A DNA stretch of 58,483 bases from an uncultured Opitutia bacterium. GTDB lineage: Bacteria; Verrucomicrobiota; Verrucomicrobiia; Opitutales; Opitutaceae. Within the stretch, counting starts at the first letter, position 1. Each line of letters begins with the position of its first letter. Under the pieces are notes generated by a model. It was not told the DNA's origin and searched no databases. It saw nothing but the letters and a program-made list of their open reading frames with translations. Of the stretch, positions 5,689 through 33,849 are shown piece by piece. The position numbers and the translations under genes were made by a program. The DNA is taken from NCBI GenBank assembly GCA_903900845.1, contig CAIUOU010000105.1, forward strand, positions 1-58,483. The letters are read 5' to 3'.

Positions 5689-5728
5689 GAGCAGACGCAC
5701 GGGCGCGGGCAGAAGGTCGGAAATCGGT

Positions 5729-6613: not shown

Positions 6614-6718
6614 CGGCCGAACATCCGGGATACCGCGCGGGCGAGTCCAGCGCGGAACACCCGGGCATCTCGACCGCGCGCCGCTTGCATGGATCCTGCT
6701 GGGGGGCATGGTCCAACC

Positions 6719-8218
6719 ATGAGCGAACAGAAGGAGCTCCTCACGCCCAACCGGAAGGCCCTCACGATCAACCTCGACGAGGAGCGCTACGGCACGTTCG
6801 CCGAGATCGGCGCGGGCCAGGAAGTGGCACGGGTCTTCTTCCAGGCCGGAGGAGCCGCGGGAACCGTGGCGAAGACGATCTCGGCCTACGACATGACCTT
6901 CAGCGACGCGATCTACGGCAAGGCGCCGCGGTACGTCTCGCGCGAGCGCCTGGCCCACATGCTCGACCACGAGTATGACCTGCTCATCGAGCGCCTGGCC
7001 GCGCAGCGCGGCGCGCGAACCACCTTCTTCGTCTTCGCCGACACCGTCGCGACCCGCGGCTTCAAGGGCACCAACGACGCGCATGGCTGGATGGGCATCC
7101 GCTTCCAGACGGAGCCCGGCGGCGTGCCGAGCGAGATCGTCCTCCACGTGCGGATGTGGGACAAGGAGGCCGTCCAGCAGCAGGCCGCGCTCGGCATCGC
7201 CGGCACGAACCTGATCTACGCCGCCTTCTATTATCGCGAGGACCCGAAACGGCTCGTCGAGTCGCTGGTGGACAACGTCGGCGCGGCGCGCGTCGAGGTC
7301 GACATGATCTCCTTCCGCGGCCCGGCGTTCGGGCACATCGACAACCGCCTGATCTCGCTCTACCTCGTGCAGCACGGCCTGACGAACGCGGTGCTTTTCG
7401 GCCCCCGGGGCGAGATGCTCCAGCCCTCCGAGGCCTTGCACCGCAAGGCGGTGCTGGTCGAGCGCGGCAGCTTCCGGCCGGTGACGCGCGTGAACGTCGA
7501 CATGCTCAACTGCGCCACCGCGCAGTTCGTGCAGGAACCGGGCGTCCAGGGCCGCGAGGTGATCGCGCTCATGGAGATCACGGTGAACAACCTGCTCACC
7601 ACCGGCACGCTCGACGCGGCGGACTTTCTCTCGCGCGTCGACCTGCTGGGCGAGCTGGGCTTCACGACGCTGATCTCGAACTACTCCGAGTACTACCGGC
7701 TGACGTCGTATTTCCGCCGCTACACGAAGGAGATGATCGGGGTGACGATGGGCATCAACAACCTCCTCGAGATCTTCAACGAGAAGTACTACGAGCACCT
7801 CGAGGGCGGTATCCTGGAGTCGTTCGGACGCATGTTCCGGAACGCCGTGAAGCTCTACATCTACCCGATGCGCCAGGAAGTGATGGCGCGCTACCAAGCC
7901 TCCGGCGGAGGTCCGGCCCCCGCCACGCCTCCGGGCCACGCATTCGCGAGCGAGGTTCTCATCACCGCCCGCAACGTTCATATCGCGCCGCACCTCCGTA
8001 ATCTCTACGACCACCTGCTCGAGAACCACTACATCGACTGCCTCACCGGCTACGACCGCGAGGCGCTCGGGGTCGTCTCGCGCGAGGTGATCAGCCGGAT
8101 CCGCGACCGGGATCCGTCCTGGGAGCGCATGGTGCCCGAGCCGGTGGCCGCCACCATCCGCCGCCGCCGGCTGTTCGGCTACACGCCGCCCCCCGCCGAG
8201 ATTCCGCTCGCCGACTGA
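6719..8218 (+). CDS. Conserved protein of unknown function
   Basis: A 499-residue soluble protein without signal peptide. It opens with NRKALTINLDEERYGTFAEI and GAGQEVARVFFQAGGAAGTV, a signature I know from a family spread over several phyla whose database names (for example nicotinate-nucleotide adenylyltransferase or TonB-dependent receptor) have no visible sequence support. No nucleotidyltransferase HxGH motif or barrel is seen. The middle holds repeated acidic and aromatic patches (YSEYYRLTSYFRRYTKEM). ATG 6719 is divergent from the esterase gene. The dapF-like gene follows by 38 bases, so the two may be one transcript. Function unknown. Confidence 0.85.
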   Translation: MSEQKELLTPNRKALTINLDEERYGTFAEIGAGQEVARVFFQAGGAAGTVAKTISAYDMTFSDAIYGKAPRYVSRERLAHMLDHEYDLLIERLAAQRGARTTFFVFADTVATRGFKGTNDAHGWMGIRFQTEPGGVPSEIVLHVRMWDKEAVQQQAALGIAGTNLIYAAFYYREDPKRLVESLVDNVGAARVEVDMISFRGPAFGHIDNRLISLYLVQHGLTNAVLFGPRGEMLQPSEALHRKAVLVERGSFRPVTRVNVDMLNCATAQFVQEPGVQGREVIALMEITVNNLLTTGTLDAADFLSRVDLLGELGFTTLISNYSEYYRLTSYFRRYTKEMIGVTMGINNLLEIFNEKYYEHLEGGILESFGRMFRNAVKLYIYPMRQEVMARYQASGGGPAPATPPGHAFASEVLITARNVHIAPHLRNLYDHLLENHYIDCLTGYDREALGVVSREVISRIRDRDPSWERMVPEPVAATIRRRRLFGYTPPPAEIPLAD

Positions 8219-15352: not shown

Positions 15353-16699
15353 TTAACCGTCGACCGGCACGCCTTCGGCCCGCAGCCGCTGGAGCTTGTA
15401 GGTTAGCGCGCGCCGGCTGATGGCGAGCTCCCGGGCAGTCTCCGTGCGGTTGAAGTTGTTCTTACGCAAAGCGCGCAGGATGGCCTCGCGTTCGATCTCG
15501 GCCAGACGTTGGCCGTCAGCGGGCTCGACCCCTTCGACCGGCACCACCGGCGGCTCCATGAGCCGCGCCGGCAGATGCTCCGGCAACACGATCTCACCCC
15601 GTGACAGGAGCGCGGCGCGCTCCATCGCGTTGCGCAGCTCCCGCACGTTGCCGGGCCACCGGTAGCGGCCCAGGGCAGCGGAAACCGAGGCGGAAAACCG
15701 CGGACGAAGGCGGGAGCTGATGCCGATGAAGTGTGCGGCGAGCGGGACGATGTCCTCCGGTCGTTCGCGCAGCGGCGGCATCACGACCTCGATCACATTG
15801 AGCCGGTAGAAAAGATCCTCGCGAAACAGCCCCTGGGTGATCCGGTCCTCCAGATCCTGCCGCGACGAGGCGAGGAGCCGAAAGTTCGCGGGAAGGTCAC
15901 GCGCCGAGCCGACACGGCGGAACACTCCGTCGTTGATCACCCGCAAGAGCTTCGCCTGCAGGGAAGCCGGCAGATCAGCCACCTCGTCGAGGAGCAACGT
16001 GCCTCCCGCGGCCTCCTCAAACCGTCCCGCCCGCGGTGTACCGGCGGTCTTGTCCCGCCCGAACAACTCGGCCTCCAGCGCCGCCTCATTTTCCGCCAGG
16101 CAGCCGGTCCTCACCATCGGACGATCCGCCCGGCGACTCCAACGATGGATCAAATCCGCCACCACTTCCTTCCCCACCCCGCTCTCGCCGGTGATCAGCA
16201 CGCGGGACTCCGACGGCGCGATCGCGGCCACATCGCGGAAGACCGACCGCGTGAGGGGGCTTTGCGCGATCACCCCATCCGGCAGCATCAACGGCTCCTC
16301 ACCTGGCCCGGCGGCCCGCTCCGGCCCCAGCGCCCGGCGCACCGAATTCATCAGCTCGTCCAGGTCGATCGGCTTGGCCAGGTAGTTGACCGCACCGTCC
16401 CGCATGGCGGCCACCGCGGAGCGGATGTCAGCGAAGGCGGTGACGAGCAGCACCGGCAGGCCCGGGTGCCGCTCGCGCACGCGTCGCAGCGTCTCGATGC
16501 CGGACATCCCGGGCATGCGCACGTCGCTGATGATCAGGCCGAAATCGCCCTCTTCCATTCGCGCGAGCGCGGCCGTGCCGGAATCCGCGGACTGCGTGCG
16601 GAAGCCCTGCGCGCGGAGAAAGGTCTCCAGCAGGCTCCGCTGGCCGGCGTCGTCATCGACCACCAGGATGCGCGCGCCTACGCCGGCGTCAGGCTTCAT
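15353..16699 (-). CDS. NtrC-family response regulator without GAFTGA loop
   Basis: 448 residues. A receiver domain (RILVVDDDAGQRSLL, phosphoacceptor in IISDVRMPGMSG, lysine in NYLAKPIDL) is joined to a sigma-54-type AAA+ domain with Walker A GESGVGKE, Walker B GGTLLLDEV and LFREDLFYRLNV. A Fis-like helix-turn-helix follows (NRTETARELAISRRALTYKL). Where activators carry GAFTGA after ELFG, this protein reads ELFGRDKTAGTPRAGRFEEA, so the loop that touches sigma-54 is missing. It may therefore regulate without sigma-54. Its start overlaps the kinase gene by 11 bases. Confidence 0.9.
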   Translation of the reverse strand: MKPDAGVGARILVVDDDAGQRSLLETFLRAQGFRTQSADSGTAALARMEEGDFGLIISDVRMPGMSGIETLRRVRERHPGLPVLLVTAFADIRSAVAAMRDGAVNYLAKPIDLDELMNSVRRALGPERAAGPGEEPLMLPDGVIAQSPLTRSVFRDVAAIAPSESRVLITGESGVGKEVVADLIHRWSRRADRPMVRTGCLAENEAALEAELFGRDKTAGTPRAGRFEEAAGGTLLLDEVADLPASLQAKLLRVINDGVFRRVGSARDLPANFRLLASSRQDLEDRITQGLFREDLFYRLNVIEVVMPPLRERPEDIVPLAAHFIGISSRLRPRFSASVSAALGRYRWPGNVRELRNAMERAALLSRGEIVLPEHLPARLMEPPVVPVEGVEPADGQRLAEIEREAILRALRKNNFNRTETARELAISRRALTYKLQRLRAEGVPVDG

Positions 16700-18140
16700 G
16701 GCGGGCGGCGCTGACGCGCACATGACTGATGCGGAACAAGGCTCCGCGCGGCGGGTTGGCCAGACAGGCGATCTCCCAGCCGTGCGCCGCAACGATCTGC
16801 CACACGATCGCGAGCCCCAGACCGACGCCGCCTGGCCGCTTGGTGACGTAAGGCTTGAAGATCTCCGCCCGCTGCTCCTCGGGCACCCCGGGGCCGTCGT
16901 CGCCCACCTCCACGACCACACCGGTGTCGTCCGTCACCCGCCATCGCACCTCCACGCGGCCCTCCGGTCCGACGGCCTGGACCGCGTTGAGCACCAGGTT
17001 GAAGAGCGCCTGACGGAAAAACGGTTCGTCCGCATCGACGACCAGAGGGTCGCTCGCCGTCACCAACCGCACCCGCTTGTCCTCGACGTCGGGCAGGAGC
17101 GTGCGGGCGACATCCGCGGCGAGGCGCGGGAGATCAACGGTGCCGGGGTGCGGCTCGCGCGGCTTGGAGTAGTCGATGAACTGGTTCAGCTGCACCGTGA
17201 CGCGGTCGGCTTCCTCCAGGATGGCGGCGGCGTGCTCGCGGAGCTTGGGAACAGTCTCCCGATCCGTGGTGACCAGGTGGGCGTGTCCGCGGATGAGGTT
17301 GAGCGGGTTGCGGGTCTCATGGGCGAGCCCGGCCGCGACGAGGTTCATCCGAGCGAGGTGGCTGTTCATCTCGCCAGCCTTGAGCAGCCGTATCCGCAGC
17401 TCGGAGTTCCGCGTGAAGTTCCGCCAGGCGAGCGAGGAGATGAGCGCCGCGCCCGAGCCCATCGCCGCCACGAGAAGACGGAGCCAGAGGTCGGCGCGCA
17501 CGGCGCGGTCCCTCTCTTCCGTGGAAAGCGAGATCACCAGACTATGCACCCCCTGCGTGCGAATCAGTCCCTCATACTCCTCCGGCGACATCCATGCCGG
17601 CCGACCGAAGGGCACCCGGGGAATGCCCACTTCCGCCGAAGACCCTGGGCGCTGGGCGGGACGCAGCGCCTTCGACAGACGCGGGTTGCTGACCACGACC
17701 GCCGAAGGCAGCGCCTTGTCCTCGGTTCCCGGGGGAGAACCCCCGAGGTCGGTGAGGTTCATCAACACCAATTCGCCCTTGCGCCAGAAAACCCCGCGGG
17801 CGCGCAGCATCTCGGATCCCAGTTCCACGGGGCGACCCGCGCTCGCGATCGTCTCGCCGGTGGCACCGAGCACCGCGATCGACTCCAATCGCCCCGGCTG
17901 GATCAGCGCCTGCAAGGACGCCTCGATGCGTTCCTTTGAGACCAGCAGCCCGAAACGCCGCTGGGAGCCGATGACGATCCCGAGCGTCGAGGTGATATCG
18001 CGCCCCCGGTTGATGAGACTCTGGCCGGCCGCCTCGCGGAAGCGCCGGTGTTCGTTCCACTGCCAGCCGCACAACGCGACCGTCACGCCGAGCAAGGCGG
18101 CGTGAAGGCCGAGTTTCTGACCGGTCGCTAGCCAACGCAT
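16689..18140 (-). CDS. Membrane sensor histidine kinase
   Basis: 483 residues. Two membrane helices (about 8-28 and 220-240) enclose a periplasmic sensor domain of about 190 residues. The H-box AGLAHETRNPLNLI, N-box FNLVLNAVQAV, G1 box DDGPGVPEE and G2 box GGVGLGLAIV are all intact, as in NtrB/ZraS-type kinases. The downstream regulator gene overlaps by 11 bases and is its likely partner. The start lies 48 bases after the secretin gene, so this pair may be transcribed with the secretion operon and could sense envelope or secretion state. Confidence 0.92.
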   Translation of the reverse strand: MRWLATGQKLGLHAALLGVTVALCGWQWNEHRRFREAAGQSLINRGRDITSTLGIVIGSQRRFGLLVSKERIEASLQALIQPGRLESIAVLGATGETIASAGRPVELGSEMLRARGVFWRKGELVLMNLTDLGGSPPGTEDKALPSAVVVSNPRLSKALRPAQRPGSSAEVGIPRVPFGRPAWMSPEEYEGLIRTQGVHSLVISLSTEERDRAVRADLWLRLLVAAMGSGAALISSLAWRNFTRNSELRIRLLKAGEMNSHLARMNLVAAGLAHETRNPLNLIRGHAHLVTTDRETVPKLREHAAAILEEADRVTVQLNQFIDYSKPREPHPGTVDLPRLAADVARTLLPDVEDKRVRLVTASDPLVVDADEPFFRQALFNLVLNAVQAVGPEGRVEVRWRVTDDTGVVVEVGDDGPGVPEEQRAEIFKPYVTKRPGGVGLGLAIVWQIVAAHGWEIACLANPPRGALFRISHVRVSAARHEA

Positions 18141-18188: not shown

Positions 18189-19355
18189 TCAGGGCTTCCC
18201 GATCATGCGCTCCAATTCGTGCTGCTCGAAAGCCTTGGGCGACAGGTCGAGCTTACCCCGCTCCTGCACCGTCACCGCATTCATGTCGTCGGGTGTGCGG
18301 ATGACGTGCGGCGTGAGGAAGATCAGCAACTCGGTCTTCACGTCGGCCTTCTGCTTGCGTTTGAAGGCGTAGCCAAGGATCGGAATATCGCCGAGCAGGG
18401 GCACTTTGCTGTCCCGGTCGGTGGTCTGCGTCGAGATGAGGCCGCCGATGACGATAGTCTTGTCGCTCGGCGTGACCACGACGGTGTCAGCCGAGCGCTT
18501 GTCGATGACGGGCGAACTGACTGTGTTGGAAATCGGCACGGTGGTCGCGCTGAGCGAGGAGATCTCGGGCGAGACGATCATCTCGACCAGGCCCTCCTGC
18601 GTGATGAACGGGGTGACGCGCAGGATGATGCCGATGTCCTGGTACTGAACCGTGTTGATGGTGGTGTTGGTCTGGTCACTCACCCGGGAGTTGGTGATGA
18701 TCGGAACCGACTGGCCGACCATGATGGTGGCCTGCTGGTTGTTGCGCGTGAGCACGGACGGACGGGAAAGGATCTCGGTCTTGCTCACGCTGGCGAGGGC
18801 GCGGAGGGTGGCGTTCACATCCTGACTGAGGATCCGGTAGAAAGCGCCGAACTGCGTCGGGTCGTTGAGCGCGTCGGCCAGGCCGAACTTGGTCGTGGCG
18901 AGGCCGCGGGGCTCGTTCTTGATCGCGATGGTGCCGTTGAAGATCGCCTCGGAACCGAGATCGACACCCTTGTCGTGCGTCACCTGCACGAACACCACGT
19001 TGATCAGCACCTGCGGCTTGGGCTTGTCGAGGGTCTGGATGATGTTGCGGATGTTCTCGTTGGTCTCGTCGTCGGTGACGACGATGAGACGGCGGGTCTG
19101 GAGGTCACTGGTGATGATGGCCTCACCGACCATGGTGGAGTTGGTGTACTGGCGGTTACCGCCCTGGCCGGAGCCAGAGCCTCCGCCGCCCGCACTCCGC
19201 GTCGCGTTGCTGATGGTGGTGGAAGGCCGCTGCATGGAGGACGCCGGTCGCTGCGCGCCCGTGGCGGGAGTCGAGGCCGCATGGATTGCGGCCACCGGAA
19301 GAGTCAGGAAGGCCAGGGCCCACCGCGCGGGCCGGGAGGAAAGGATTCGGAACAT
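18189..19355 (-). CDS. gspD: Secretin pore subunit, C-terminal half (split GspD)
   Basis: 388 residues with its own signal peptide (LAFLTLPVAAIHA). After a Gly/Ser-rich linker (about 55-67), EAIITSDLQTRRLIVVTDDE with IRNIIQTLDKP is the second half of a secretin N3 domain. A full secretin domain follows, with VPIITNSRVSDQ, VQYQDIGIILRVTP, VIGGLISTQ and VPLLGDIPILGYAF. The protein would form the outer-membrane gate of the type II system. It ends soon after the secretin domain, with no clear pilotin-binding S-domain. The preceding gene (40 bases upstream) supplies the missing N0-N2 region. Confidence 0.9.
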   Translation of the reverse strand: MFRILSSRPARWALAFLTLPVAAIHAASTPATGAQRPASSMQRPSTTISNATRSAGGGGSGSGQGGNRQYTNSTMVGEAIITSDLQTRRLIVVTDDETNENIRNIIQTLDKPKPQVLINVVFVQVTHDKGVDLGSEAIFNGTIAIKNEPRGLATTKFGLADALNDPTQFGAFYRILSQDVNATLRALASVSKTEILSRPSVLTRNNQQATIMVGQSVPIITNSRVSDQTNTTINTVQYQDIGIILRVTPFITQEGLVEMIVSPEISSLSATTVPISNTVSSPVIDKRSADTVVVTPSDKTIVIGGLISTQTTDRDSKVPLLGDIPILGYAFKRKQKADVKTELLIFLTPHVIRTPDDMNAVTVQERGKLDLSPKAFEQHELERMIGKP

Positions 19356-19395
19356 GATGGGAACGGTTGGGAGGAACAGGGTGACGGGGCCGGGC

Positions 19396-20634
19396 TCAGC
19401 GCACGCCGCGGGTGCCGAGGGTGATGTTGGAGCCGGTGGCCTGGGTGTTGCTCGAGGCGCGGGTGGTGAGCGGGTCCACCTCCTGGTTGCCGGTGGTGCG
19501 GACGTTGCTGCCTTGGAAGAGATTCCGGAGAACGCTTTCGACCTGCTTCACGTCGCCGTTCTCCAGAGTGTAGACGAAGACCTTCTGCTTGCGCGCGGAA
19601 CTGGAATCCAGCTGCCGGATGATGGCCTCGACATCGTCGAGTGCCTCGCGGGAGGCGCTGACGATGACCGAATACGTGCGCGGGTCAGGCACCGCCACGA
19701 CGGGCGTGCCTCGCGAGCCGCCGGTGCCGCCCCGGCTGCCACCGGAGCGCCCGCTGGTGCTGCCGCGGCTTCCGCCCGGCCCGCCGCCACGGCCGGCAGC
19801 CATTGCCGCCAAGGCGGCGCCGGGCCCACCGGACATGCCGCCGAAACCACCGAACGCCCCGAAGGGCATTCCGCTCGCCCCGCCGGGACCGCGGGAATTC
19901 GCTCCGCCGGTGCCACCGCCGAAGATGGAGCTGATCAGGCCCGCCATTTCCGTGGGGTCCGCGTTCTTGAGCTGGAAAACCTTCATCGAGGCCACCGACC
20001 CCGCGGAACCGTCCAGCGCCGAGACGAGCTCGACGATGTGACGAACGTTGCTCTGGGTATCGGTGACAACGAGCGAGTTGCTGTCGACGTTGGCGGTGAT
20101 GGTGGCGCTGTTCGGCAGCAAAGTCGCGAGATCGGACGCGGCCTGGGAGGCCTCGATCCGCTCGAGCGGGATGATCTGCATCACCATCTCAGCGTTGTCG
20201 GGAATCTGCCGCGGATCGTTGCCGGTACGGATCGGGATGGAGCGCTTGCGGGCGTCCTCCTTCGAGCTCACGACCAGCGTGCGCCCCTTGAGGACGGCGG
20301 TGTAGCCGCTCTTGTTGATGGCGAGGTTGAGCAGCTGGACCGCCTCCTGCTTGGAGACGGGTTGCGCGCTCCACATGTCGATGTTGCCGCGCACCGGGGT
20401 CTCCAGGACGATGACGAAGCCCGCCGCCTCGCTCAGGTAATTCAGGACCGTCTCGAGCGGGGCGCCGCGGAAGTTAAAGCGCAAGCCACCCGAGGTGTCG
20501 CGAGCGGGACGTTCGGCCGTTTCGGCGGCGGCCGGCTGGGCCGGAGCGGCCGCGGGGGCGTTCTGGGCGGGGACCGGGGACGCGGAGACCGCGAAACCGG
20601 CGAGGGCGAGGGGGAGGAGCTTACTCGTTTTCAT
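19396..20634 (-). CDS. gspD: Secretin periplasmic ring protein, N-terminal half (split GspD)
   Basis: 412 residues with signal peptide (LALAGFAVSASPVPAQ). An N0-type domain (LRFNFRGAPLETVLNYLSEA to TLVVSSKEDA, about 50-130) precedes N1 (IIPLERIEASQAASDLATLL). Next comes N2, interrupted by a long Gly-rich loop (about 240-315). The last part (QKVFVYTLENGDVKQVESVL) is the first half of an N3 domain and then stops, with no secretin pore. Together with the next gene it makes one complete secretin, so the two products must assemble in the periplasm. A frameshift artefact is unlikely because the partner has a signal peptide and a 40-base gap. Confidence 0.88.
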   Translation of the reverse strand: MKTSKLLPLALAGFAVSASPVPAQNAPAAAPAQPAAAETAERPARDTSGGLRFNFRGAPLETVLNYLSEAAGFVIVLETPVRGNIDMWSAQPVSKQEAVQLLNLAINKSGYTAVLKGRTLVVSSKEDARKRSIPIRTGNDPRQIPDNAEMVMQIIPLERIEASQAASDLATLLPNSATITANVDSNSLVVTDTQSNVRHIVELVSALDGSAGSVASMKVFQLKNADPTEMAGLISSIFGGGTGGANSRGPGGASGMPFGAFGGFGGMSGGPGAALAAMAAGRGGGPGGSRGSTSGRSGGSRGGTGGSRGTPVVAVPDPRTYSVIVSASREALDDVEAIIRQLDSSSARKQKVFVYTLENGDVKQVESVLRNLFQGSNVRTTGNQEVDPLTTRASSNTQATGSNITLGTRGVR

Positions 20635-21221
20635 TTCTTCAATTGTTGTTCGCGTTGCTTCATCAGGCGCTTGAGGACCTCGGAGGCGTTGGCGGGAATC
20701 TCGACGGGAACGGCCTCGGCCGCACGCCCGGAACCGGCGCGGGGATCGGCGGGCGGGGTACGCGGCGCGCTCACGGTCCAGTCGCCACCCTCAACGCGCC
20801 GGATCTGCTGGGAGACGACGAGCTTGAGCGGCTGGTCGCCGCGCTGGAGCTCGACGCCGCCGGCGTCGACGCGGAGCACCTTGAAATCGGCGATCTCTCC
20901 GCCCTCCCCCACCTCACGACGGAAGGAAGCCTCGGAACTGTGGAAGACCGCGAGTCCGCGGTCGCCGTAGCGGACGATGCCGACGAGCGTGATCTCGTCG
21001 GAGCGGACCGGCTTCTCCTCATCGGCGACCCGGGTGCGCCCCACGCGGGTGGGATTGAAGATATTCCGCTCGAGGATGAGCTGGAACGCCTCGAACCCCT
21101 GCCCGCTGGCCGCGGCGGCCGGGGCGGCGGAGGAAGCGGGCGCGCCGCCACGGCGGCGATCCGTGCCTTGGGCGGCTGCGACCGCGGCGAGCACGAACAA
21201 GACGAAAGTGTGGCGTTTCAT
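20631..21221 (-). CDS. gspC: GspC-like inner-membrane clamp protein
   Basis: 196 residues: an N-terminal hydrophobic segment (HTFVLFVLAAVAAAQG) that may be a signal peptide or anchor. The homology-region pattern follows (FEAFQLILERNIFNPTRV, ITLVGIVRYGDRGLAVF, GGVELQRGDQPLKL). In type II systems GspC links the inner-membrane platform to the secretin N0 domain. There is no PDZ domain; the tail is Arg/Lys-rich. It overlaps both neighbours by four bases, and lies directly before the N0-bearing secretin half, which is its expected partner. Confidence 0.75.
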   Translation of the reverse strand: MKRHTFVLFVLAAVAAAQGTDRRRGGAPASSAAPAAAASGQGFEAFQLILERNIFNPTRVGRTRVADEEKPVRSDEITLVGIVRYGDRGLAVFHSSEASFRREVGEGGEIADFKVLRVDAGGVELQRGDQPLKLVVSQQIRRVEGGDWTVSAPRTPPADPRAGSGRAAEAVPVEIPANASEVLKRLMKQREQQLKK

Positions 21222-21766
21222 CGGCGGCCCTCCAAGGGCGCGAACCGCAGGCCGCTGACGAGCAGCCCGAGACCGAGCCGGTTGCCGGAATCGTCGCGGG
21301 AGGTGAGCTCGATGGAGTCGATCCGGAGCGCCAGCGGCGACTTCTCCACCTCATGGAGGAAACGGGTGATGGCGTTGAGCGAGCCGCTGGCGTCGACGCG
21401 GCACTCGAGCAGGGAGTAGCGGTTATTGGCGCCGCGTTTCCATTGCGGCTTGATGGAGCCGAGCTCCACACCGCCGGCGCGACCCCAGCGGTCGAACGCG
21501 GTGACGAGGTCCTGTTCGGCCTTGGCCGGCTCGGCGGGCATCGCCTGCTGCTGCATCTCGGACCACATCGCGCGGGTGCGGTCGGCCCGGGCGATGGCCG
21601 AGCGGCCGTCGGCGACGAGGCGGGTGAGCCGCGCGATCTCGGCGGAGCGGGAACGCCAAGCGGCGGTCAAGGGGGTGAAAACCATGCTGTCCAGCACGAG
21701 GAGCAGCACGGCCGCCCCCGCGAGGATCATCAGGAGACGCTGGCGTTGGGAGGAAGCTTTGCTCAT
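21218..21766 (-). CDS. gspM: GspM/PilO-like assembly platform protein
   Basis: 182 residues from ATG 21766. One membrane helix (RLLMILAGAAVLLLVLDSMV) is followed by a short coiled stretch (AEIARLTRLVADGRSAIARA) and a ferredoxin-like periplasmic domain ending SGLRFAPLEGRR. This is the layout of GspM and PilO, which pair with GspL or PilN in the inner-membrane platform. Identification rests on layout and position between gspL-like and gspC-like genes, each with four-base overlaps. Confidence 0.75.
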   Translation of the reverse strand: MSKASSQRQRLLMILAGAAVLLLVLDSMVFTPLTAAWRSRSAEIARLTRLVADGRSAIARADRTRAMWSEMQQQAMPAEPAKAEQDLVTAFDRWGRAGGVELGSIKPQWKRGANNRYSLLECRVDASGSLNAITRFLHEVEKSPLALRIDSIELTSRDDSGNRLGLGLLVSGLRFAPLEGRR

Positions 21767-23169
21767 GAGCCGGAGGTTCCGATCCAGCGGAACGTGAAGG
21801 TGAACTGGGCGGGCGTCTTGCCGCGGATCTGCTCGATTTTCAGGCCCTGGACCTCCTTGGACTGCCGCAGCAGGTCGAGGGTCCGGAGCAGGGAGGCGTT
21901 GTCGCGCGCGGTGCCGGTGACGGTGACGGTGGACGGGCTGTGCACCTCGAAACCCTTGGCGGTGACACTGCCGTTGTCGGGGAAGCACTCCACGACCTTG
22001 CGCAGGATGGAAAGGTTGCGGAACGAGGTGTCGTACCACGGCCGGAACTCGCGGATGCGGGCCTGCACGGCGTCGAGGTCCTTCACTTGCGCCTCCATCG
22101 CCTCCCAGTCAGAGCGGAGCCGCCAGAGCTGGTATTGCTGCCACTCGAACGCCCCGCCGACGATGACGAGCACGGCGGCGGCGGCGAAACCGGCCGTCGC
22201 GAGCCGACGCGAGTTGTAGCGCGCGACGAGCCGCGCGAAGCGCCCCGGTTTGGGCGGCAGGAACTCAAGCGCCGGCGGGCCATCGCGGAGGAAACGCAGA
22301 CCGACCTCCTCCACCACCTCCTCGGCGGCGAACTTCCGACCGGACGCGATGGTATCGATCGACAGGCCGGCCCCCACCGCCCACGCGCCCAACGCGCCCG
22401 CGAGCGCGCCGACCGCCCGTTCCTCGCCACGCACCGCCAGCGCCCGGACCTCGGCGCGCAGCGCGGCCGGCATCTGTTCCAGCGTGATGCGGAGCTCGCG
22501 CACCAGCGCGGCGGTGTTGACGACCCGCTCCCCAGCCTCGGACTCGATGGAGGCCTCGAGCACGCGGAAGGCGACGATGCCGCCCCCGGCGGCGACCAGC
22601 AGCGTGGCGCCCGCGCCCTCGACCCAGAGCGTCATCCGCCCCGGCCCCACGGCGGGAACCGCGTCGCGCAACGCCGGCAGACCGAGCGTGCAGCTCACCG
22701 GGCGGAGACCGGCGCCGCGCAGGACCTCGCCGAGCCGCGCGACCTGCTCGCGACGCACCGCAAGCTGCGTGGCGAAACCCTCACCCCCCGCGCGCGCCAG
22801 CGAGCGGGACAGGTGTAATTCCTCGGGCGCACTTGGGAAACCCTTCTCCGCCTCGAGCTGGAGGAGGCTCTCGGTGTCCTCAGACGAAAGCTCCGGCAGC
22901 GCCGACTGCTGGGTCATCACCCATTCGGGCGGCAGCACCACGATGCAAGCGCGCTCCTTGATCCGGGCCGCGTCGAGCAGCCCCCGGATCTCCCGGCCGA
23001 CCAACTCGGGTTCCGGGTGCAGGGGATCGAGTGAGAGCGGCGAGGAGACCTGCCGGACCACGGAGACGGCGTTCTTGGAACGCGCGATCTGCGCGGCGAC
23101 GAGGCGCCCTCCCGCGAGGGAGAGCGCGAGGAGGGATTGCGGGGCGCGCCGCACGGAAAACCGGTTCAC
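21763..23169 (-). CDS. gspL: GspL-type protein, PilM-PilN-like fusion
   Basis: 468 residues. The first 310 form an actin-like cytoplasmic domain of the GspL/PilM type (LLALSLAGGRLVAAQI, ACIVVLPPEWVMTQQ). A membrane helix (ATAGFAAAAVLVIVGGAFEW, about 320-340) then leads to a periplasmic coiled coil and a PilN-like ferredoxin fold (VTVTGTARDNASLLRTLDLL). GspL recruits the GspE ATPase to the membrane. The order kinase-fold, helix, ferredoxin-fold equals PilM plus PilN of type IV pili in one chain. Four-base overlaps join it to both neighbours. Confidence 0.83.
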   Translation of the reverse strand: MNRFSVRRAPQSLLALSLAGGRLVAAQIARSKNAVSVVRQVSSPLSLDPLHPEPELVGREIRGLLDAARIKERACIVVLPPEWVMTQQSALPELSSEDTESLLQLEAEKGFPSAPEELHLSRSLARAGGEGFATQLAVRREQVARLGEVLRGAGLRPVSCTLGLPALRDAVPAVGPGRMTLWVEGAGATLLVAAGGGIVAFRVLEASIESEAGERVVNTAALVRELRITLEQMPAALRAEVRALAVRGEERAVGALAGALGAWAVGAGLSIDTIASGRKFAAEEVVEEVGLRFLRDGPPALEFLPPKPGRFARLVARYNSRRLATAGFAAAAVLVIVGGAFEWQQYQLWRLRSDWEAMEAQVKDLDAVQARIREFRPWYDTSFRNLSILRKVVECFPDNGSVTAKGFEVHSPSTVTVTGTARDNASLLRTLDLLRQSKEVQGLKIEQIRGKTPAQFTFTFRWIGTSGS

Positions 23170-24509
23170 AGGCGCTCACTCCTTCCCGAACGCAGGAACT
23201 GCCGGACCTGGGGACCGAGCGCCCACCCATAAGCGGAGAGGTCCTGATGATAAACGATACGCGGGGTTGATCTCGTCATGTCGAAGACGGTGCGCGTGCG
23301 GCAATAGCCGCGGCCCGAGGGCCCCACCGCGACCACATCGGCCGAGAACTGGTAGGAGCGGTCGGTGATATACGGTCCAGCGCGGGTGATCGCGCCGCGG
23401 CTCAGCACCTGCGTGAGCCACGCAAAGGAGCCGCGCGTGACGTCGGGATTCGCCAGCCGGTAGGCGACGATCGCGGCCGCCCCGTCGAGTCCAATTCCCG
23501 GGAGGCAGGCCAACACGGTTTCGCCCGCGGTGTTCACGTTGACGCGGCCGCGCACCGTGGAGCCGTTGCTGGTGGTGATGTCGTCGCGAACCTGGCTCCA
23601 TTCCTCGGCGCTGAGGCGGCCTTCCACCATGAACTCCGCCGGACTGCGTAGCTCGCCGGCGCCGAGGGCGCCCATGATCTGGGCGGCGCGACCCGGACCA
23701 AAGCGCTGCTGCAACAGCGGCAGCAGGCGTTGCTGCCTGTTCTGGAAGGTGGCGACGTTGATCCGCGGCGAGCCGTTGGCTCGGGTGTTGGGCTCCCGGC
23801 TGTGGACCGTGACGTGCTCGAGAATACCCGGCTCGATCAGCCCATCGCCGTTGTCCCGCGGGGCGGAACGGTCGCCGTCGTTCTCGTTTTCATCCAACGC
23901 CCCGTTGCGGTTGCTGTCCTCGCCAAGGATCAGGTCGAGGGTGGCACCGTAGACTAGGCGCAGCTCGTCGACCGTTTCAAAATCCGCTCCTTTGTTGAGC
24001 CGCGCCGGCTCGAGTCGTCCGTAAGTGCTGTCACCCAGCCCCTGCTCGCTCCGTGAGCGCCAGCTCAGGATGGCGTCGACCAACTCCGGTGTCATTGTCG
24101 GCAAAGCCTCGAGCATCGTGCGCGTGGCGGTGTTGAGGTTGAGTTTCGACGCTTCGTCCACGAGGCCGAACACCGGCTCGTCCGTCGGGCGCTGGTCCGG
24201 ATCCCGGCCGAGAAGCCAGAAGGTCGCGTCCCCCAGGGCCACTTCCGCGGAACGGTAGTCGTCACGGTACGGCACCGCGCCGCCGGTGCCGAACTGGCCC
24301 AGCACGAAGGCCGCGTAACGGGCGCCGCCGGCCGCCGCCTGCCGGGCCACGACCTCCGCGACCTGCCCGTCGGCGGCACGCATCTCCGCCGTCATCTGAT
24401 CGGCGAAATAGACCGTGAGCGCCACCAGCCCGAGACAGACCCAGATCACGATGATCAGCACCGACCCGCGGCGGCGGGACGGGGGAAACGGGGAAACGCG
24501 CGGGCTCAC
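23166..24509 (-). CDS. gspK: GspK-like minor pseudopilin
   Basis: 447 residues from GTG 24509, chosen because it starts just before the prepilin-like segment SRRRGSVLIIVIWVCLGLVA and overlaps the preceding gene by four bases. GspK caps the pseudopilus tip. The large inserted domain (DEASKLNLNTATRTMLEALP, then NVNTAGETVLACLPGIG) has the two helix-hairpin-helix-like repeats of the T2SSK family. DSNRNGALDENENDGD at about 250 looks like an acidic calcium-binding loop. It is longer than E. coli-type GspK (about 330 residues). Confidence 0.85.
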   Translation of the reverse strand: MSPRVSPFPPSRRRGSVLIIVIWVCLGLVALTVYFADQMTAEMRAADGQVAEVVARQAAAGGARYAAFVLGQFGTGGAVPYRDDYRSAEVALGDATFWLLGRDPDQRPTDEPVFGLVDEASKLNLNTATRTMLEALPTMTPELVDAILSWRSRSEQGLGDSTYGRLEPARLNKGADFETVDELRLVYGATLDLILGEDSNRNGALDENENDGDRSAPRDNGDGLIEPGILEHVTVHSREPNTRANGSPRINVATFQNRQQRLLPLLQQRFGPGRAAQIMGALGAGELRSPAEFMVEGRLSAEEWSQVRDDITTSNGSTVRGRVNVNTAGETVLACLPGIGLDGAAAIVAYRLANPDVTRGSFAWLTQVLSRGAITRAGPYITDRSYQFSADVVAVGPSGRGYCRTRTVFDMTRSTPRIVYHQDLSAYGWALGPQVRQFLRSGRSERL

Positions 24510-25222
24510 GGTGCAGCCTCCTCCGCCTCGAGGGTTTGGCTGGTGGTCGTGCGCACCAGCACGGGCACCACGATGTCCACCGGCGCCGACGCGGCCTGCC
24601 CTCCGGCCGGCGGCACGCGCACGATCGAGAAGCGAAACGCGACCGGCAGGGTCTGCGTGTCCGCCGATTCCCAGCTGTCGGTCCACGCGGTGCCGTCGAA
24701 GTAAGAGAGGGCCGCGCTGTCGACATCGGCGAGGATCACCTGGTCCTCCGGCACCGCCTCCTGGACCGGGAGCAGGTTGCGCGTGACAGCGCGGACGAGG
24801 TTGCGCCCCCGACCGCCCTGCCCGGAAGGCGCCAGGAAATAGGCCACGGCCTGCAGGTCCCCGAACGGAGTCCAGCCGTCGATCCGGCCCGACGAAGTGT
24901 AGATGTCGGGCGTGACGCGCTCGCCCAGGCTGTCGGCCGGCGTGAGCGTCTCGCCGGCGGAGCTCAGCTCGCGGGCCATGCCGCTGGCTCCGCCCGGCAG
25001 CACCAGGCCGGCGAGGTCGCGCCGGATGATGCCGGCGGCGCGCTGCACCGACTGGTCCTCGGCGAGACGCGCATGGGTCGTGTTGTGGAGCCGCAGGGCG
25101 CTGAAAAAAGTGGTCTGGATCACAACCAGCACCACCGCGCCGACCGCGGTGGCGATGATCAGCTCGAGGAGCGTGAAACCGCGCCGGCGCGCGCGAGGGG
25201 CGAAGGTGCGGCGCGCGATCAT
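24506..25222 (-). CDS. gspJ: GspJ-like minor pseudopilin
   Basis: 238 residues with the prepilin peptidase signature RRRGFTLLELIIATAVGAVV near the N-terminus; cleavage is expected after the glycine. The globular part (SAALSYFDGTAWTDSWES, VAFRFSIVRVPPAGG) matches GspJ, a component of the pseudopilus tip with GspI and GspK. Adjacent pseudopilin genes overlap by four bases at both ends. Confidence 0.85.
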   Translation of the reverse strand: MIARRTFAPRARRRGFTLLELIIATAVGAVVLVVIQTTFFSALRLHNTTHARLAEDQSVQRAAGIIRRDLAGLVLPGGASGMARELSSAGETLTPADSLGERVTPDIYTSSGRIDGWTPFGDLQAVAYFLAPSGQGGRGRNLVRAVTRNLLPVQEAVPEDQVILADVDSAALSYFDGTAWTDSWESADTQTLPVAFRFSIVRVPPAGGQAASAPVDIVVPVLVRTTTSQTLEAEEAAP

Positions 25223-25635
25223 TGCTGCGTGCCGAGCGTCGCGTCGGCGGTCGGGGAGGCCGGCAGCAGCGTCGCCACGGAAACCTCGTGGGCGCCGCCC
25301 TGCACGGTGAACGAAACCGTCACCGTCATCTGCTGCATCGCGTCCTCGGGCCAGTTATCGACGCGCATCACCCACGGGAAGGAGCTTTCACCCTCGTAGG
25401 CGGTGCCGCTCGCCGAGGCCTGCTGGATCTGCGTCTCGACCAGCAGTTCGTTGAGCACCCGCTCCCCCACCCGCATCGCCGCCGCCTTGCGCTGGCCCAG
25501 CACGGCGACGCGGCTCGCGACGCTCATGCCCTCGATCGCCACGGGGATGATGATCGCCATCATGAGCAACGCGGCGAGCACCTCCACCAGCGTGAAGGCC
25601 GCGCGCCGCCGGGAGGATGGGACGCGATCAACCAT
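25219..25635 (-). CDS. gspI: GspI-like minor pseudopilin
   Basis: 138 residues with signature RRRAAFTLVEVLAALLMMAI; the residue before F is Ala instead of the usual Gly, which some prepilin peptidases still accept. GERVLNELLVETQ and the following beta-rich part fit GspI, the core of the pseudopilus tip complex. It overlaps gspH by eight bases and gspJ by four. Confidence 0.82.
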   Translation of the reverse strand: MVDRVPSSRRRAAFTLVEVLAALLMMAIIIPVAIEGMSVASRVAVLGQRKAAAMRVGERVLNELLVETQIQQASASGTAYEGESSFPWVMRVDNWPEDAMQQMTVTVSFTVQGGAHEVSVATLLPASPTADATLGTQQ

Positions 25636-26206
25636 TGCGGATCAGCGGCCGGATCTCGAACCCGAGCCGGTTGAAGGTGGGCACGATCTCCAGCGCGCCA
25701 TCGTCGCCTTGACGGATCACAACCCGCTGCACTCCGCCCTCGTCGAAAAAACCATCAGGGTTGCACCGGATCGCGGCCAGATTCTCCGGCAAACCGAGCC
25801 GCTCGTCCTCCTGCTCGGAGACCGGCGCCTCGCCGACCGCCGGCACCTCCAGCCGCAGAGTTGGCTCGGCGGCGTGCACGATGCGCCGCGCCCCTTCGTC
25901 CCCCGCCGCATGGCTTTCCTGCAGCTCGAGGCCGTACATCGACCGCGCGGGATCGATCCAGAGGATCACGGGAACCCCCTCCGCGACCGCGCGCGCGCGG
26001 CCGTAGTGGATGAGCGAAAGCATGCGCTGCGCCTCTTGGCTGAGCGCGCGGCCGCGGAAGAAGGAGGCCATGCGCGGCATCACCATCGCGGCCACCGTGA
26101 GCAGCAGCACCATCACGACGATGAGCTCCACCAGCGTGAACGCGCGACGCCCGCCGGCCGGAGGCCGGAAGCGGAAGACGCGCGGGACGCGGGCGGCGAC
26201 GCTCAT
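25628..26206 (-). CDS. gspH: GspH-like minor pseudopilin
   Basis: 192 residues with signature GGRRAFTLVELIVVMVLLLT, again with Ala in place of Gly before the cleavage site. The GspH fold is indicated by RMLSLIHYGRARAVAEGVPV and the later VQRVVIRQGDDGALEIVP. It would join the pseudopilus shaft to its tip. The gene sits between gspG (19-base gap) and gspI (eight-base overlap). Confidence 0.82.
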   Translation of the reverse strand: MSVAARVPRVFRFRPPAGGRRAFTLVELIVVMVLLLTVAAMVMPRMASFFRGRALSQEAQRMLSLIHYGRARAVAEGVPVILWIDPARSMYGLELQESHAAGDEGARRIVHAAEPTLRLEVPAVGEAPVSEQEDERLGLPENLAAIRCNPDGFFDEGGVQRVVIRQGDDGALEIVPTFNRLGFEIRPLIRNG

Positions 26207-26225: not shown

Positions 26226-26699
26226 TCAGTTCGCGGCGACCCGGCCGTTCACAATGTCGTCCGCGCTGTTCGGCTGGCCGTCCGGCCCCGTGGAACGCAG
26301 GTCATAGCCGGCCGGATTGATGCGGCCGGGGAACTCGTAGATGTAAGCGCGGCCCCACGGATCGAGGGGGATCTCGCTCTTCAGGTAGGGCCCGCGCCAG
26401 TTGGGCACGTCGGCGGGAGCCGCGACCAGCTGGTTCAGGCCGTCCTGCCCCCGCGGATAGCTGCCGGTGTCGACCTCGAAGGCGTCGAGCGCCGTGCCGA
26501 AGGTCGAGATCTGGGTCTGCGCCGCGGTGATGCGCGCCTGTTCCGTGCGTCCGGTGAACTTGGGCAGGACCAGGGAGGCGAGGATGCCAAGGATCACGAG
26601 CACGAGCAGGAGCTCGACCAGCGTGAAGCCGCGGCGGGAGCGGCGGTGGCGCGCGGCGCGCGCGGAGGCGTGGGTGGCTTTCATGGAAGGGTTGGTCAT
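26226..26699 (-). CDS. gspG: Major pseudopilin GspG
   Basis: 157 residues. RRSRRGFTLVELLLVLVILG gives a canonical prepilin cleavage site. The conserved GspG core follows: FEVDTGSYPRGQDGLNQLVA, WRGPYLKSEIPLDPWGRAY, then GYDLRSTGPDGQPNSADDI with calcium-binding-loop residues. GspG polymerises to push substrates through the secretin. ATG at 26699 overlaps the gspF stop by four bases. No prepilin peptidase gene is present in the window. Confidence 0.95.
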   Translation of the reverse strand: MTNPSMKATHASARAARHRRSRRGFTLVELLLVLVILGILASLVLPKFTGRTEQARITAAQTQISTFGTALDAFEVDTGSYPRGQDGLNQLVAAPADVPNWRGPYLKSEIPLDPWGRAYIYEFPGRINPAGYDLRSTGPDGQPNSADDIVNGRVAAN

Positions 26700-27955
26700 T
26701 TGATGTGGTCCTGCAGCGAGAAGATGGGAATCACCATGCCGATGAAGATCGTCCCGATCAGCGCCGCGATGACGAAGAGCATCACGGGCTCGGCCAGCGC
26801 GACGACGGCCTTCAGCTGGCGGTCCAGGTCGCCCTCGGTGACGTTGGCGATACGGAGCAGCTCGGCGTCGAGCTTGCCGCTCTCCTCCGCCACCGAGATC
26901 ATCTCGACTACGGTGCCGGGGAAAAGGGCCCGGTTCTGCGCGAGACTCTTGCCGAGGGCCTTGCCCTCCTTCACCCGGTCGATCGACTCCGAGACGGCGT
27001 CGACGAGGATCTGGTTGCCGATCGAGCGGCGGGCGACGTTCAGCGCGTTGATCAGCGGCACGCCGGCGCCGAGGAGCGTGCCGAGCATCCGGCAGAAACG
27101 CGCCATGGCGAACTGGGCGAGGAGCGGCCCGATCGTGGGCACCCGCAGGATGTAACCCTCCCAGGCGCGGCGGCCCGCCTCGGAGCGGAACCAGCTGCGG
27201 AGCGAGATGAAGGCCACGACCAGCGCGGCGCCGATGAACAGCCCGTAGTTACGCACGGCGTCACTCACGCCCACGATCATCCTCGTGATCAGCGGCAGCT
27301 CCGCATTGAAGCCCTGGAACACGAGCTGGAAACGCGGGATGAAGAAGACCAGCAGGAAGATCAGCACCCCCACCGCCAGGAACAGCAGGATGGCCGGGTA
27401 CATGAGGGCCGTCATCACCTTGCCCTTGAGCTCCTTTTCCCGCGATTGGAAATCGGCGATCTGCGCCAGCACGACGTCGAGAAAGCCGCCGGTCTCGCCC
27501 GCCTCCACCATCGCGACATACACCCGCGGGAAGGTCTCCGGGGAACGCGCCATCGCGTCCGACAGCGACATGCCGTCGATCACCAGATCGTGGATCTCCT
27601 TCCACTTCGCCTTCGCCACCGGCTCCGCCGCCTCACGATGGATGATGACCAGCGCGCGGCTGAAAGGCACGCCCGCCGCGAGCAGGCTCGATAGCAGGCG
27701 CGTGAAGTTCTCGAGGATGCGCGGGGTGATCTTACCCGGTTGCCCGAGCTTCAGTTTCAACCCGAAACCGCCCCCTTGGCCGGCCGGCGCCGCGGCGGCG
27801 CCCTTGCCCGCCGGGGATGCGGATTCGGACAATCGGATCGGTTTAAGACCGCGCAGTTCGACCTGGCGCATCGCCTCCTGCCGGTTGGCCGCGTCGATGA
27901 GGCCCTCCGTTGCGGCACCGTCGAGTTGCAAGGCCTTGTAGGCGAACTGGGGCAT
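26696..27955 (-). CDS. gspF: GspF inner-membrane platform protein
   Basis: 419 residues beginning MPQFAYKALQLDG, typical for GspF/PilC. Two T2SSF repeats are visible (FTRLLSSLLAAGVPFSRALV and MARFCRMLGTLLGAGVPLIN). Membrane helices lie near 185-210, 235-255 and 385-410 (LFVIAALIGTIFIGMVIPIF). GspF connects the GspE motor to pseudopilus assembly. The gene overlaps gspG by four bases and lies 25 bases after gspE. Confidence 0.95.
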   Translation of the reverse strand: MPQFAYKALQLDGAATEGLIDAANRQEAMRQVELRGLKPIRLSESASPAGKGAAAAPAGQGGGFGLKLKLGQPGKITPRILENFTRLLSSLLAAGVPFSRALVIIHREAAEPVAKAKWKEIHDLVIDGMSLSDAMARSPETFPRVYVAMVEAGETGGFLDVVLAQIADFQSREKELKGKVMTALMYPAILLFLAVGVLIFLLVFFIPRFQLVFQGFNAELPLITRMIVGVSDAVRNYGLFIGAALVVAFISLRSWFRSEAGRRAWEGYILRVPTIGPLLAQFAMARFCRMLGTLLGAGVPLINALNVARRSIGNQILVDAVSESIDRVKEGKALGKSLAQNRALFPGTVVEMISVAEESGKLDAELLRIANVTEGDLDRQLKAVVALAEPVMLFVIAALIGTIFIGMVIPIFSLQDHIK

Positions 27956-27980: not shown

Positions 27981-29711
27981 TCAGGCCTGCGGGGCCCGGG
28001 CGGCGGCCGCGTTGGGATCCTCCTCGTGGACCGTCGTCACGCTGAGCACTTCCTCGATGGTCGTGCGCCCCTCCTGCACCAGCCGGCGGCCATCCTCGGC
28101 CAGCGTGGTCATTCCGGCGCGACGCGCGGCGTCACGGATGAGGTCCGTCGAACCGCTCCGCAGGATCAGCTGCCGGATCTCGTTGTTGGTGTCCATCCAC
28201 TCGAAGATCGCCTGCCGCCCATGGAATCCGGTGCCCCGGCAATCGCGACAGCCGACGGATTTATGGATCACGGCGTCGGCCGGAATCCCCAGCCGGACCT
28301 TGTACGTGCGCGCCGTCGGGGAATCGTCGACCGCCTTGCATTTGGGGCAGAGCAACCGCACGAGACGCTGGGCGAGCACGGCCTCGAGGGAGGAGGCGAC
28401 GAGATAGGGCTCCACCCCCATGTCGACCAGACGCGTGAGCGCGCCCGGGGCGTCGTTCGTGTGCAGGGTCGAGAACACCAGGTGCCCCGTGAGCGAGGCC
28501 TGCACCGCGATCTGCGCGGTTTCCTGGTCGCGGATTTCGCCGATCAGGATGACGTCGGGGTCGTGGCGCAGGATGGAACGGAGACCGCGCGCGAACGTGA
28601 GTCCGGATTTCTCCGACACCTGGATCTGGTTCACGCCCTTCAGCTGGTACTCGATCGGGTCCTCGATCGTGACGATCTTCCGTTGCGCGTCGTTGATGCC
28701 CTGCAACGCGGTGTAGAGCGTGGAGGTCTTGCCTGAGCCCGTGGGTCCGGTGACCAGCACGATGCCGTGCGGCAGCTCAAGGACACGCTGGAGGCAGGTG
28801 TGATCGCGCTCGTGCATGCCGAGGTCGCGGACCCCGCGCAGCGCGGAGTTCTGGCGCAGAAGGCGCATCACCACCGCCTCGCCGTGCAGCATCGGGATGA
28901 TCGAGACGCGGATGTCCACCTCCGTCGACTCGATGCGCACCTTGATGCGTCCGTCCTGGGGCAGGCGCTTCTCGGCGATGTTGAGGTGGCTGAGGATCTT
29001 CACGCGCGCCACGATCGCCGGCTGGAACTTCTTGATCTGCGCCGGCACCGGGACCTCCTGCAACACGCCGTCGATGCGGTAGCGGATCCGCAGCTCGTCC
29101 TCGAACGGTTCGAGGTGGATGTCGGACGCGCGCAGCTCGATGGAGTCCTTGAGGACCTGGTTGACGAACCGGATGATCGAGGCGTCCTCCGCGGCCTCGT
29201 CGAGATTGGTGCCCGCCGCGCCCTCGCCCTCGTCAACCACCTGCAGGTCGCCCTCCTCGTGCAGGGTGCCGATGGTGTCGGCGCCGACGCCGAGACGCTT
29301 CTTCAGTTCACGCTGGACGGCCTCGGAAGGCGCGAGCACCGGCCGCAGCCGCAGGCCCGTGAGCGCCCGCAACCCGTCCATGCCCGCGGTCACGAAGAGC
29401 CGGCTCGTCGCGATCTCGATCTGGTTGTCGATCCGCCGCAGCGGCAGCAGCTCGTCCCGCAACAGCAGCCTTGCGGGAAAGAGTGACAGCACTTGTTTGT
29501 CGGGCTCGAGCTCGTCGAGCCGCGCGAACGGCACCCCGTACTCACGTGCGAGCCAGCGCAGGACCGCATCCTCGGCCGGTGGCTCCCCGGCGGGAAGCTG
29601 GCGCAGGAAGGAACGGGCGTCGCCGGCCGTGAGCTGCCGCGCCGCGATCATGCGGTCGAGCAACTCCGGCAGAACGCCGTTGCTGGTGGAGGCGGGCGCG
29701 TCGGTCAGCAC
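27981..29711 (-). CDS. gspE: GspE secretion ATPase
   Basis: 576 residues. An N-terminal GspE/PilB domain precedes the ATPase core with Walker A GPTGSGKTSTLY, an Asp box around TIEDPIEYQLKGVNQIQV, Walker B DPDVILIGEIRDQETAQ and a His box TGHLVFSTLHTNDAP. A zinc tetracysteine (CPKC ... CRDC) lies at about 485-520. It powers pseudopilus extension from the cytoplasm. ATP-binding residues look intact. It lies four bases after the head gene of the operon. Confidence 0.96.
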   Translation of the reverse strand: MLTDAPASTSNGVLPELLDRMIAARQLTAGDARSFLRQLPAGEPPAEDAVLRWLAREYGVPFARLDELEPDKQVLSLFPARLLLRDELLPLRRIDNQIEIATSRLFVTAGMDGLRALTGLRLRPVLAPSEAVQRELKKRLGVGADTIGTLHEEGDLQVVDEGEGAAGTNLDEAAEDASIIRFVNQVLKDSIELRASDIHLEPFEDELRIRYRIDGVLQEVPVPAQIKKFQPAIVARVKILSHLNIAEKRLPQDGRIKVRIESTEVDIRVSIIPMLHGEAVVMRLLRQNSALRGVRDLGMHERDHTCLQRVLELPHGIVLVTGPTGSGKTSTLYTALQGINDAQRKIVTIEDPIEYQLKGVNQIQVSEKSGLTFARGLRSILRHDPDVILIGEIRDQETAQIAVQASLTGHLVFSTLHTNDAPGALTRLVDMGVEPYLVASSLEAVLAQRLVRLLCPKCKAVDDSPTARTYKVRLGIPADAVIHKSVGCRDCRGTGFHGRQAIFEWMDTNNEIRQLILRSGSTDLIRDAARRAGMTTLAEDGRRLVQEGRTTIEEVLSVTTVHEEDPNAAAARAPQA

Positions 29712-32410: not shown

Positions 32411-32414
32411 CCCC

Positions 32415-33836: not shown

Positions 33837-33849
33837 GCTCCGCCGCACC

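Follow-up and report, generated by a model that had tools for sequence, protein, structure and literature searches.

In the window (the whole stretch of DNA that was analysed, 58,483 nucleotides from an uncultured Opitutia bacterium), we identified two adjacent genes, D-N and D-C, which very probably (probability about 0.85, judged from sequence comparisons) encode the outer-membrane secretin of a type II secretion system (T2SS), divided between two genes across a whole clade, with the N3 domain shared between the two chains. In the usual description, a type II secretin ring is a homo-oligomer of a single chain, and a lasting cut inside N3 would show that the ring and its gate can be built from two subunits.

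Gene layout, position of the break and operon

D-N and D-C lie on the minus strand in different reading frames. Their parts are given below, with limits of the N0 and N1 segments that were chosen by us and used for both the identity and the dN/dS values reported further on; the strand and helix names (beta1-alpha1, beta2-beta3-alpha2) are those of the known N-domain fold, which we take to apply here.

20634..19396, minus strand: D-N, 412 residues, stop codon TGA; signal peptide, N0, N1, N2, first half of N3 and a Ser/Asn/Gln-rich tail
20251..20484, minus strand: N0, D-N residues 51-128 (Pfam type_II_gspD_N0 at residues 53-117, 40.7 bits)
20011..20193, minus strand: N1, D-N residues 148-208, one of three Secretin_N stretches
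19606..19992, minus strand: N2, Secretin_N at D-N residues 218-346, interrupted by a Gly-rich alpha1-beta2 loop
19705..19920, minus strand: Gly-rich loop of N2, 72 residues, mean pairwise identity 0.27
19516..19590, minus strand: N3a, the beta1-alpha1 half of N3, D-N residues 349-373, Secretin_N positions 1-22 of 69
19356..19395, minus strand: gap of 40 bases between the D-N stop and the D-C start
19355..18189, minus strand: D-C, 388 residues; signal peptide, linker, second half of N3 and secretin pore
19278..19355, minus strand: second signal peptide, D-C residues 1-26, recognised by eye
19155..19277, minus strand: Gly/Ser-rich linker, D-C residues 27-67, mean pairwise identity 0.25
19026..19127, minus strand: N3b, the beta2-beta3-alpha2 half of N3, D-C residues 77-110, Secretin_N positions 35-69 of 69
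18297..18800, minus strand: secretin pore domain PF00263, 168 and 170 bits, whole model

Pfam searches matched D-N to the GspD N0 domain and three Secretin_N stretches, and D-C to a Secretin_N half (residues 79-115 to positions 33-69 of 69, 15.6 bits, which alone is below the cut-off of 28.2) followed by the complete Secretin model. The GspD model TIGR02517 is covered by D-N at positions 1-294 of 600 and by D-C at positions 263-600, with scores of 162.7 and 244.4, respectively, both below the cut-off of 351.35. These coverages bear out the earlier reading, in which the upstream gene extends from N0 through N1 and N2 into the first half of N3, and the next gene, 40 bases on, supplies the remaining half together with the pore, preceded by a signal peptide (by eye). 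The GspD order of N0, three Secretin_N domains and secretin is thus provided by the two chains jointly, with N3 needing both halves. Both chains match GspD best among the NCBIfam families, the families listed for them include no Tad model, and the best PDB sequence matches of the split chains are T2SS GspD chains. Because neither chain reaches the GspD cut-off, the secretin of a system like this would escape annotation that relies on TIGR02517 alone.

The N-terminus of D-C reads MFRILSSRPARWALAFLTLPVAAIHA, in which the signal peptide was judged by eye, and is followed by the linker GGGGSGSGQGGN. The break had been placed in a Gly/Ser-rich loop, a description that fits the D-C linker but not the C-terminal tail of D-N, which is rich in Ser, Thr, Asn and Gln. 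Five positions of this tail (19396..19515, minus strand), D387, L389, R392, A393 and Q398, are invariant across 25 rows of D-N, and an RQYxNST motif is conserved in D-C directly ahead of N3b (19128..19154, minus strand); both would sit at the break.

Within the N3 fold, the break falls in the alpha1-beta2 loop. In E. coli K-12 GspD, residues 267-288 fit beta1-alpha1 of N3 and residues 310-342 fit beta2-beta3-alpha2, with about 20 residues (290-309) where the split chains break, and the D-C profile aligns from that loop onward to PDB 5wq7_A, the letters of which match E. coli K-12 GspD. Several single-chain GspDs from Proteobacteria and from the phylum have a long loop here, rich in Gly, Ser, Thr or Ala, and two others (L182 and L184) have a short one; because the loop varies in length and is of low complexity in several single-chain GspDs, cutting it should cost the fold little. 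In the available part of a cryo-EM report on PulD, loop 288-303 is described as unmodelled in the map and N3 constriction sites are described in the secretin channel (PMC6882859); judging from its position, the PulD loop would be the same loop as the one broken here. The Gly-rich loop of N2 (19705..19920) occupies the fold position that corresponds to the N3 break.

The minus-strand operon runs in the order GspE, F, G, H-like, I-like, J, K, L-like, M-like, GspC-like, D-N and D-C, followed by a sensor kinase and then an NtrC-type regulator. Gene limits between 21218 and 25635 are ORF limits as listed, with unrefined starts.

27981..29711, minus strand: GspE, T2SS model best match, 584.4 bits, below the cut-off of 630.25
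26696..27955, minus strand: GspF, T2SS model best match, 346.5 bits, below the cut-off of 424
26226..26699, minus strand: GspG, 130.3 bits, over the cut-off of 88.85
25628..26206, minus strand: GspH-like, 18.4 bits, below the cut-off of 21 (Pfam)
25219..25635, minus strand: GspI-like, T2SSI 19.4, below the cut-off of 25 (Pfam)
24506..25222, minus strand: GspJ, T2SSJ 38.1, over the cut-off of 28 (Pfam)
23166..24686, minus strand: GspK, T2SSK 29.8, over the cut-off of 24.2 (Pfam)
21763..23169, minus strand: GspL-like, T2SSL 12.5, below the cut-off of 25.5 (Pfam)
21218..22039, minus strand: GspM-like, T2SSM 11.3, below the cut-off of 27.8 (Pfam)
20631..21221, minus strand: GspC-like periplasmic protein, its stop overlapping the D-N start; NF041515 weak, 21.4 bits, cut-off 150
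16689..18140, minus strand: sensor kinase, adjoining the secretin
15353..16921, minus strand: ORF of the NtrC-type response regulator, next to the secretin

Across 62 related loci (see below), tblastn recovered the GspC-like gene in 58, GspL in 57, GspK in 54, GspJ in 44, GspM in 38, the sensor kinase in 44 and the regulator in 41, with the misses including loci cut by contig ends. The kinase runs in the opposite direction in L139 and the regulator in L139 and L155; regulation of the T2SS by this pair is possible. Three consecutive sulfatase-like genes, named by eye, stand beside the operon (30572..35310, plus strand) and could encode secreted substrates. The window's genome contains three further secretin genes, two with PilQ and the Amuc_1098 family as nearest families, and a third (G000:C166, L004) that is a single-chain GspD-like secretin (256.8 bits over positions 3-594 of 600, below the cut-off). 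Because of this last gene, need by itself does not prove a secretion role for the split secretin.

Conservation of the split among relatives

The earlier note raised the question of whether relatives share the split, and they do. We sampled 150 genomes of the family, 25 of which gave strong matches to both chains, and in all 25, from 11 genera, D-N and D-C are adjacent and separate, with gaps of 15-131 bases, all three relative frames and a signal peptide (by eye) on each chain. When D-C alone is counted, an orthologue is present in 49 of 252 family genomes and in 12 of 49 genera, with open frames of 378 to 839 codons in these 49 genomes; the two longest fall at the positions of L104 and L098, both of which are split. 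Within the order, the split type was detected only in the window's own genome among 132 genomes, and outside the class it was found in two genomes, G352 and G397, among 288 from the phylum (read as loci L071 and L072).

A scan of GTDB r220 species genomes, which by design finds relatives keeping certain peptides, yielded 62 loci titled Opitutaceae, Opitutae, Opitutia, Opitutus, Verrucomicrobia(ota), Verrucomicrobiae, Verrucomicrobiales and Pedosphaera, with two titled Akkermansia muciniphila. Together with L071 and L072, 63 of the 64 loci carry both chains in separate frames or separated by a stop, the exception being L144, which begins at a contig end, and none carries them fused in one open frame. 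The counts of loci and genomes are not additive, since some loci come from the same assemblies. No unbroken orthologue was found in the searches of family, order and phylum genomes and the GTDB r220 loci.

The start-to-stop offsets over 61 loci are distributed among the three frames as 23, 21 and 17, and therefore point to no fixed frameshift or read-through signal. A frameshift or programmed read-through is ruled out by this spread and by the conservation of the split. A crude signal-peptide rule of our own picked out D-C in 51 of 53 relatives, compared with 805 of 4557 internal windows, and also 40 of 53 D-N chains, where the shortfall is partly due to assigned starts and to n-regions without K or R. 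Shine-Dalgarno-like motifs, which precede the start of D-N in 13 of 53 cases and that of D-C in 8 of 53, are uninformative here. Some loci show peculiarities of their own: the sequence of L128 contains an N; the D-C frame of L154 changes inside the pore domain, possibly through an assembly error; overlap with D-N in L141 appears only under an early start choice; and the gaps in L139 (131 bases) and L109 (135 bases) exceed the median of 35, with the true start in L109 possibly being a different one.

In one metagenome assembly (L136, DNDP01000042.1, MAG UBA12295), the secretin appears to be encoded by three genes:

4169..4978: gene 1, N0, N1 and the first half of the next N domain
4997..5836: gene 2, signal peptide (by eye), the second half of that domain, one whole N domain and N3a
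5869..7086: gene 3, signal peptide, N3b and pore

The extra break also lies in a Gly-rich alpha1-beta2 loop and is accompanied by a third signal peptide; the two halves that it creates score 22.8 and 26.5 bits apart and 48.2 bits when joined in order (43.9 bits in reversed order, as two stretches). L136 is placed inside the split clade in the 47-row pore tree described below. At the thresholds used, neither the 14 matches from 252 family genomes nor the 6 from 240 phylum genomes revealed a further three-gene case; this search covered other species, and its results do not include the L136 assembly.

The two halves of N3 and the origin of the chains

The sequence of each chain strongly suggests that D-N and D-C jointly complete one N3 fold. 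Alone, N3a of the window scores 14.7 bits against Secretin_N positions 1-22 and N3b scores 19.5 bits against positions 35-69; joined in order, they score 37.6 bits over positions 1-69, above the cut-off of 28.2, and the reversed order also exceeds this cut-off (29.2 bits), as two partial matches. The ordered halves of L130, L145 and L149 score 36.5, 40.6 and 31.3 bits, respectively, with 31.9 bits for the reversed halves of L145. Against 21 single-chain secretins, N3a alone reaches at most 5.3 bits, and N3b alone matches N3 of E. coli GspD with 23.0 bits.

Both halves are well conserved. Among the 25 genomes, the mean pairwise identity within D-N is 0.81 for N0, 0.80 for N3a, 0.75 for N1, 0.68 for N2b, 0.64 for N2a and 0.46 for the tail, so that on identity alone N0 is as conserved as N3a; within D-C it is 0.73 for both N3b and the RQY motif, 0.67 for the pore core, 0.26 for the signal peptide and 0.25 for the linker. 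In 16 chosen sister pairs, dN/dS is 0.028 for N3a, 0.056 for N3b, 0.125 for N0-N2 with the loop and 0.12 for the pore with the C-terminus. Counted in more detail for those 13 pairs whose domain layout is that of the window, dN/dS is, for D-N, 0.030 (N3a, resting on few codons, 325, with 11 non-synonymous differences), 0.055 (N1), 0.070 (N0), 0.080 (N2a), 0.094 (N2b) and 0.230 (N2 loop), and for D-C, 0.066 (N3b), 0.068 (RQY motif), 0.104 (pore core), 0.247 (linker) and 0.484 (signal peptide). The lowest values are thus those of N3a in D-N and of N3b and the RQY motif in D-C. Being a highly constrained half domain of 25 residues at a chain end, N3a should therefore pack on the missing half. The top-10 mean of co-variation, 0.240 for N3a-N3b, is not separable from the 0.225 for N3a-N2b (42 loci, effective number about 25) and thus adds nothing to the case. 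Since related genera share a cut inside one domain, the two pieces are suggested to rebuild that domain together.

The pore chains belong to a single clade with members outside the class as well. In a pore tree built from 47 rows (21 from split secretins; of the single-chain ones, 20 from the phylum and 6 from Proteobacteria), the split rows form one group with support of 100/99 and a long stem (0.83); a preceding tree of 53 rows, six of which (four of them long-branched) were dropped to obtain these 47, gave an SH-aLRT of 99. The N0-N1 tree, with 39 rows after removal of 4 single-chain rows that had no match and 3 that scored less than 12 bits, also has one split group, weakly supported (70/99, 67% of bootstrap trees) and with many open forks. 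A profile of N3b and the pore gives at least 372 bits for split loci other than L153, L154 and L156 (341, 255 and 94; loci cut short or frame-changed) and at most 196 for the single-chain secretins examined, a gap that is biased because the profile was trained on split rows. Single-chain GspDs above the TIGR02517 cut-off occur in 75 of the 288 phylum genomes, including G352 and G397, and no single-chain ancestor inside the split clade was found in the genomes and loci searched. Gene fission with gain of a second signal peptide, as the earlier note had proposed, is supported: together the chains span a single GspD, their folded parts do not overlap, each has GspD as its best model, and the split group is firm in the pore tree and weak in the N0-N1 tree.

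The sequencing or assembly error, or decaying pseudogene, that might be invoked for such a locus would agree with all 62 named loci being titled MAGs and with the frame change inside D-C of L154. The split recurs, however, in many assemblies, including G071, listed with one contig, and D-C has a signal-peptide-like start and both chains are under purifying selection; chance or error is excluded because the split is conserved across genomes and loci. We thus give such an origin practically no weight: the D-N/D-C split is not an error. D-N and D-C might instead have different origins and have been brought together by partial replacement, as proposed for the secretin of rhizobial type III secretion systems (T3SS), for which RhcC1/RhcC2 offer a precedent in the available part of that report (PMC3459982), and the D-N tree is weakly resolved. 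Such an origin is very improbable considering that GspD is the best NCBIfam model for both chains and the covered parts meet at one place, that the split rows form one group in both trees, and that the break lies inside a domain with no core piece of the Pfam model duplicated or missing.

It is also conceivable, but unlikely, that both chains contribute to one secretin without their N3 halves complementing each other, with D-N forming a ring of its own or N3a pairing elsewhere, and N3b being carried by the pore alone. D-N may have an extra role, as was suggested for rhcC1, which is perhaps constitutively expressed according to the accessible text of one study (PMC3973906), but the complementarity of the Secretin_N matches and the low dN/dS of both halves speak against non-complementing halves.

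Under the preferred reading, a secretin with a shared N3, both chains would be exported via Sec, D-C would assemble the pore and D-N would supply the N0-N2 rings. Each N3 of the ring would consist of beta1-alpha1 from a D-N chain and beta2-beta3-alpha2 from a D-C chain, either of the same or of the neighbouring protomer, so that docking of D-N would complete N3, and both chains would keep their free ends within the alpha1-beta2 loop. The broader model, in which rings of two chains (three in one lineage) are held together by intermolecular completion of N domains, with alpha1-beta2 loops serving as repeated permitted sites of fission, appears slightly better than an even bet. If true, bacteria would possess a naturally occurring split-domain nanomachine, a prokaryotic counterpart of the mitochondrial half-domain GspDN proteins, and D-N docking could be an assembly checkpoint or make the periplasmic part an exchangeable module. 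The split would also provide a ready-made dissection of the ring, namely, a pore without periplasmic rings and rings without a pore.

Comparison with known systems

The premise that secretins are normally one chain has to be qualified by published exceptions, RhcC1/RhcC2 and the mitochondrial T2SS, as far as the available parts of the reports go (PMC3574062, PMC3973906, PMC3459982, PMC8134430). Split secretins are thus already known; what appears to be new is a GspD of the T2SS that is divided within a domain, and this in more than one class, and no report of a split bacterial GspD was found in titles and abstract openings of the open-licence literature.

Single-chain GspDs (PulD, XcpQ, E. coli K-12 GspD) share with the split secretin the N0-N1-N2-N3-secretin order and the T2SS operon, whereas the latter has two genes, two signal peptides, a break inside N3 and chains that each score below the TIGR02517 cut-off. 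In the accessible portions of the respective reports, the rhizobial-type T3SS secretin is split into RhcC1 and RhcC2, with three ORFs in B. elkanii (PMC3574062, PMC3973906) and with the two genes separated by other genes (PMC3574062), and the pieces are described as having distinct origins, RhcC2 being Tad-like, for which partial replacement was proposed (PMC3459982). On that evidence, the resemblance lies in the N domains and pore being on separate genes and in the occurrence of three-ORF versions; unlike RhcC1/RhcC2, D-N and D-C are both of T2SS type, adjacent and broken inside a domain. The combination of a Tad-type pore chain with a T3SS-type N chain, which characterizes RhcC, is not seen here, GspD being the best model for both chains.

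TadB/TadC, the two-gene inner-membrane platform of type IV filament machines (PMC6668835, as far as that text was available), likewise represents gene fission of a core component in the same superfamily but affects another component, and each product keeps a whole T2SSF domain. The mitochondrial T2SS secretin, in the available part of its description, consists of several proteins, GspD, GspDL and GspDN1-3, with GspDN2 and GspDN3 corresponding to the C- and N-terminal halves of one N domain, and its pieces are too divergent for assignment to N1, N2 or N3 (PMC8134430). To the extent of that description, half N domains on separate proteins are common to both cases, a likeness of architecture only, and, in contrast to the eukaryotic pieces, the halves in D-N and D-C can be assigned to N3. 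Given a bacterial split of this kind, the mitochondrial half-domain proteins would look less unusual.
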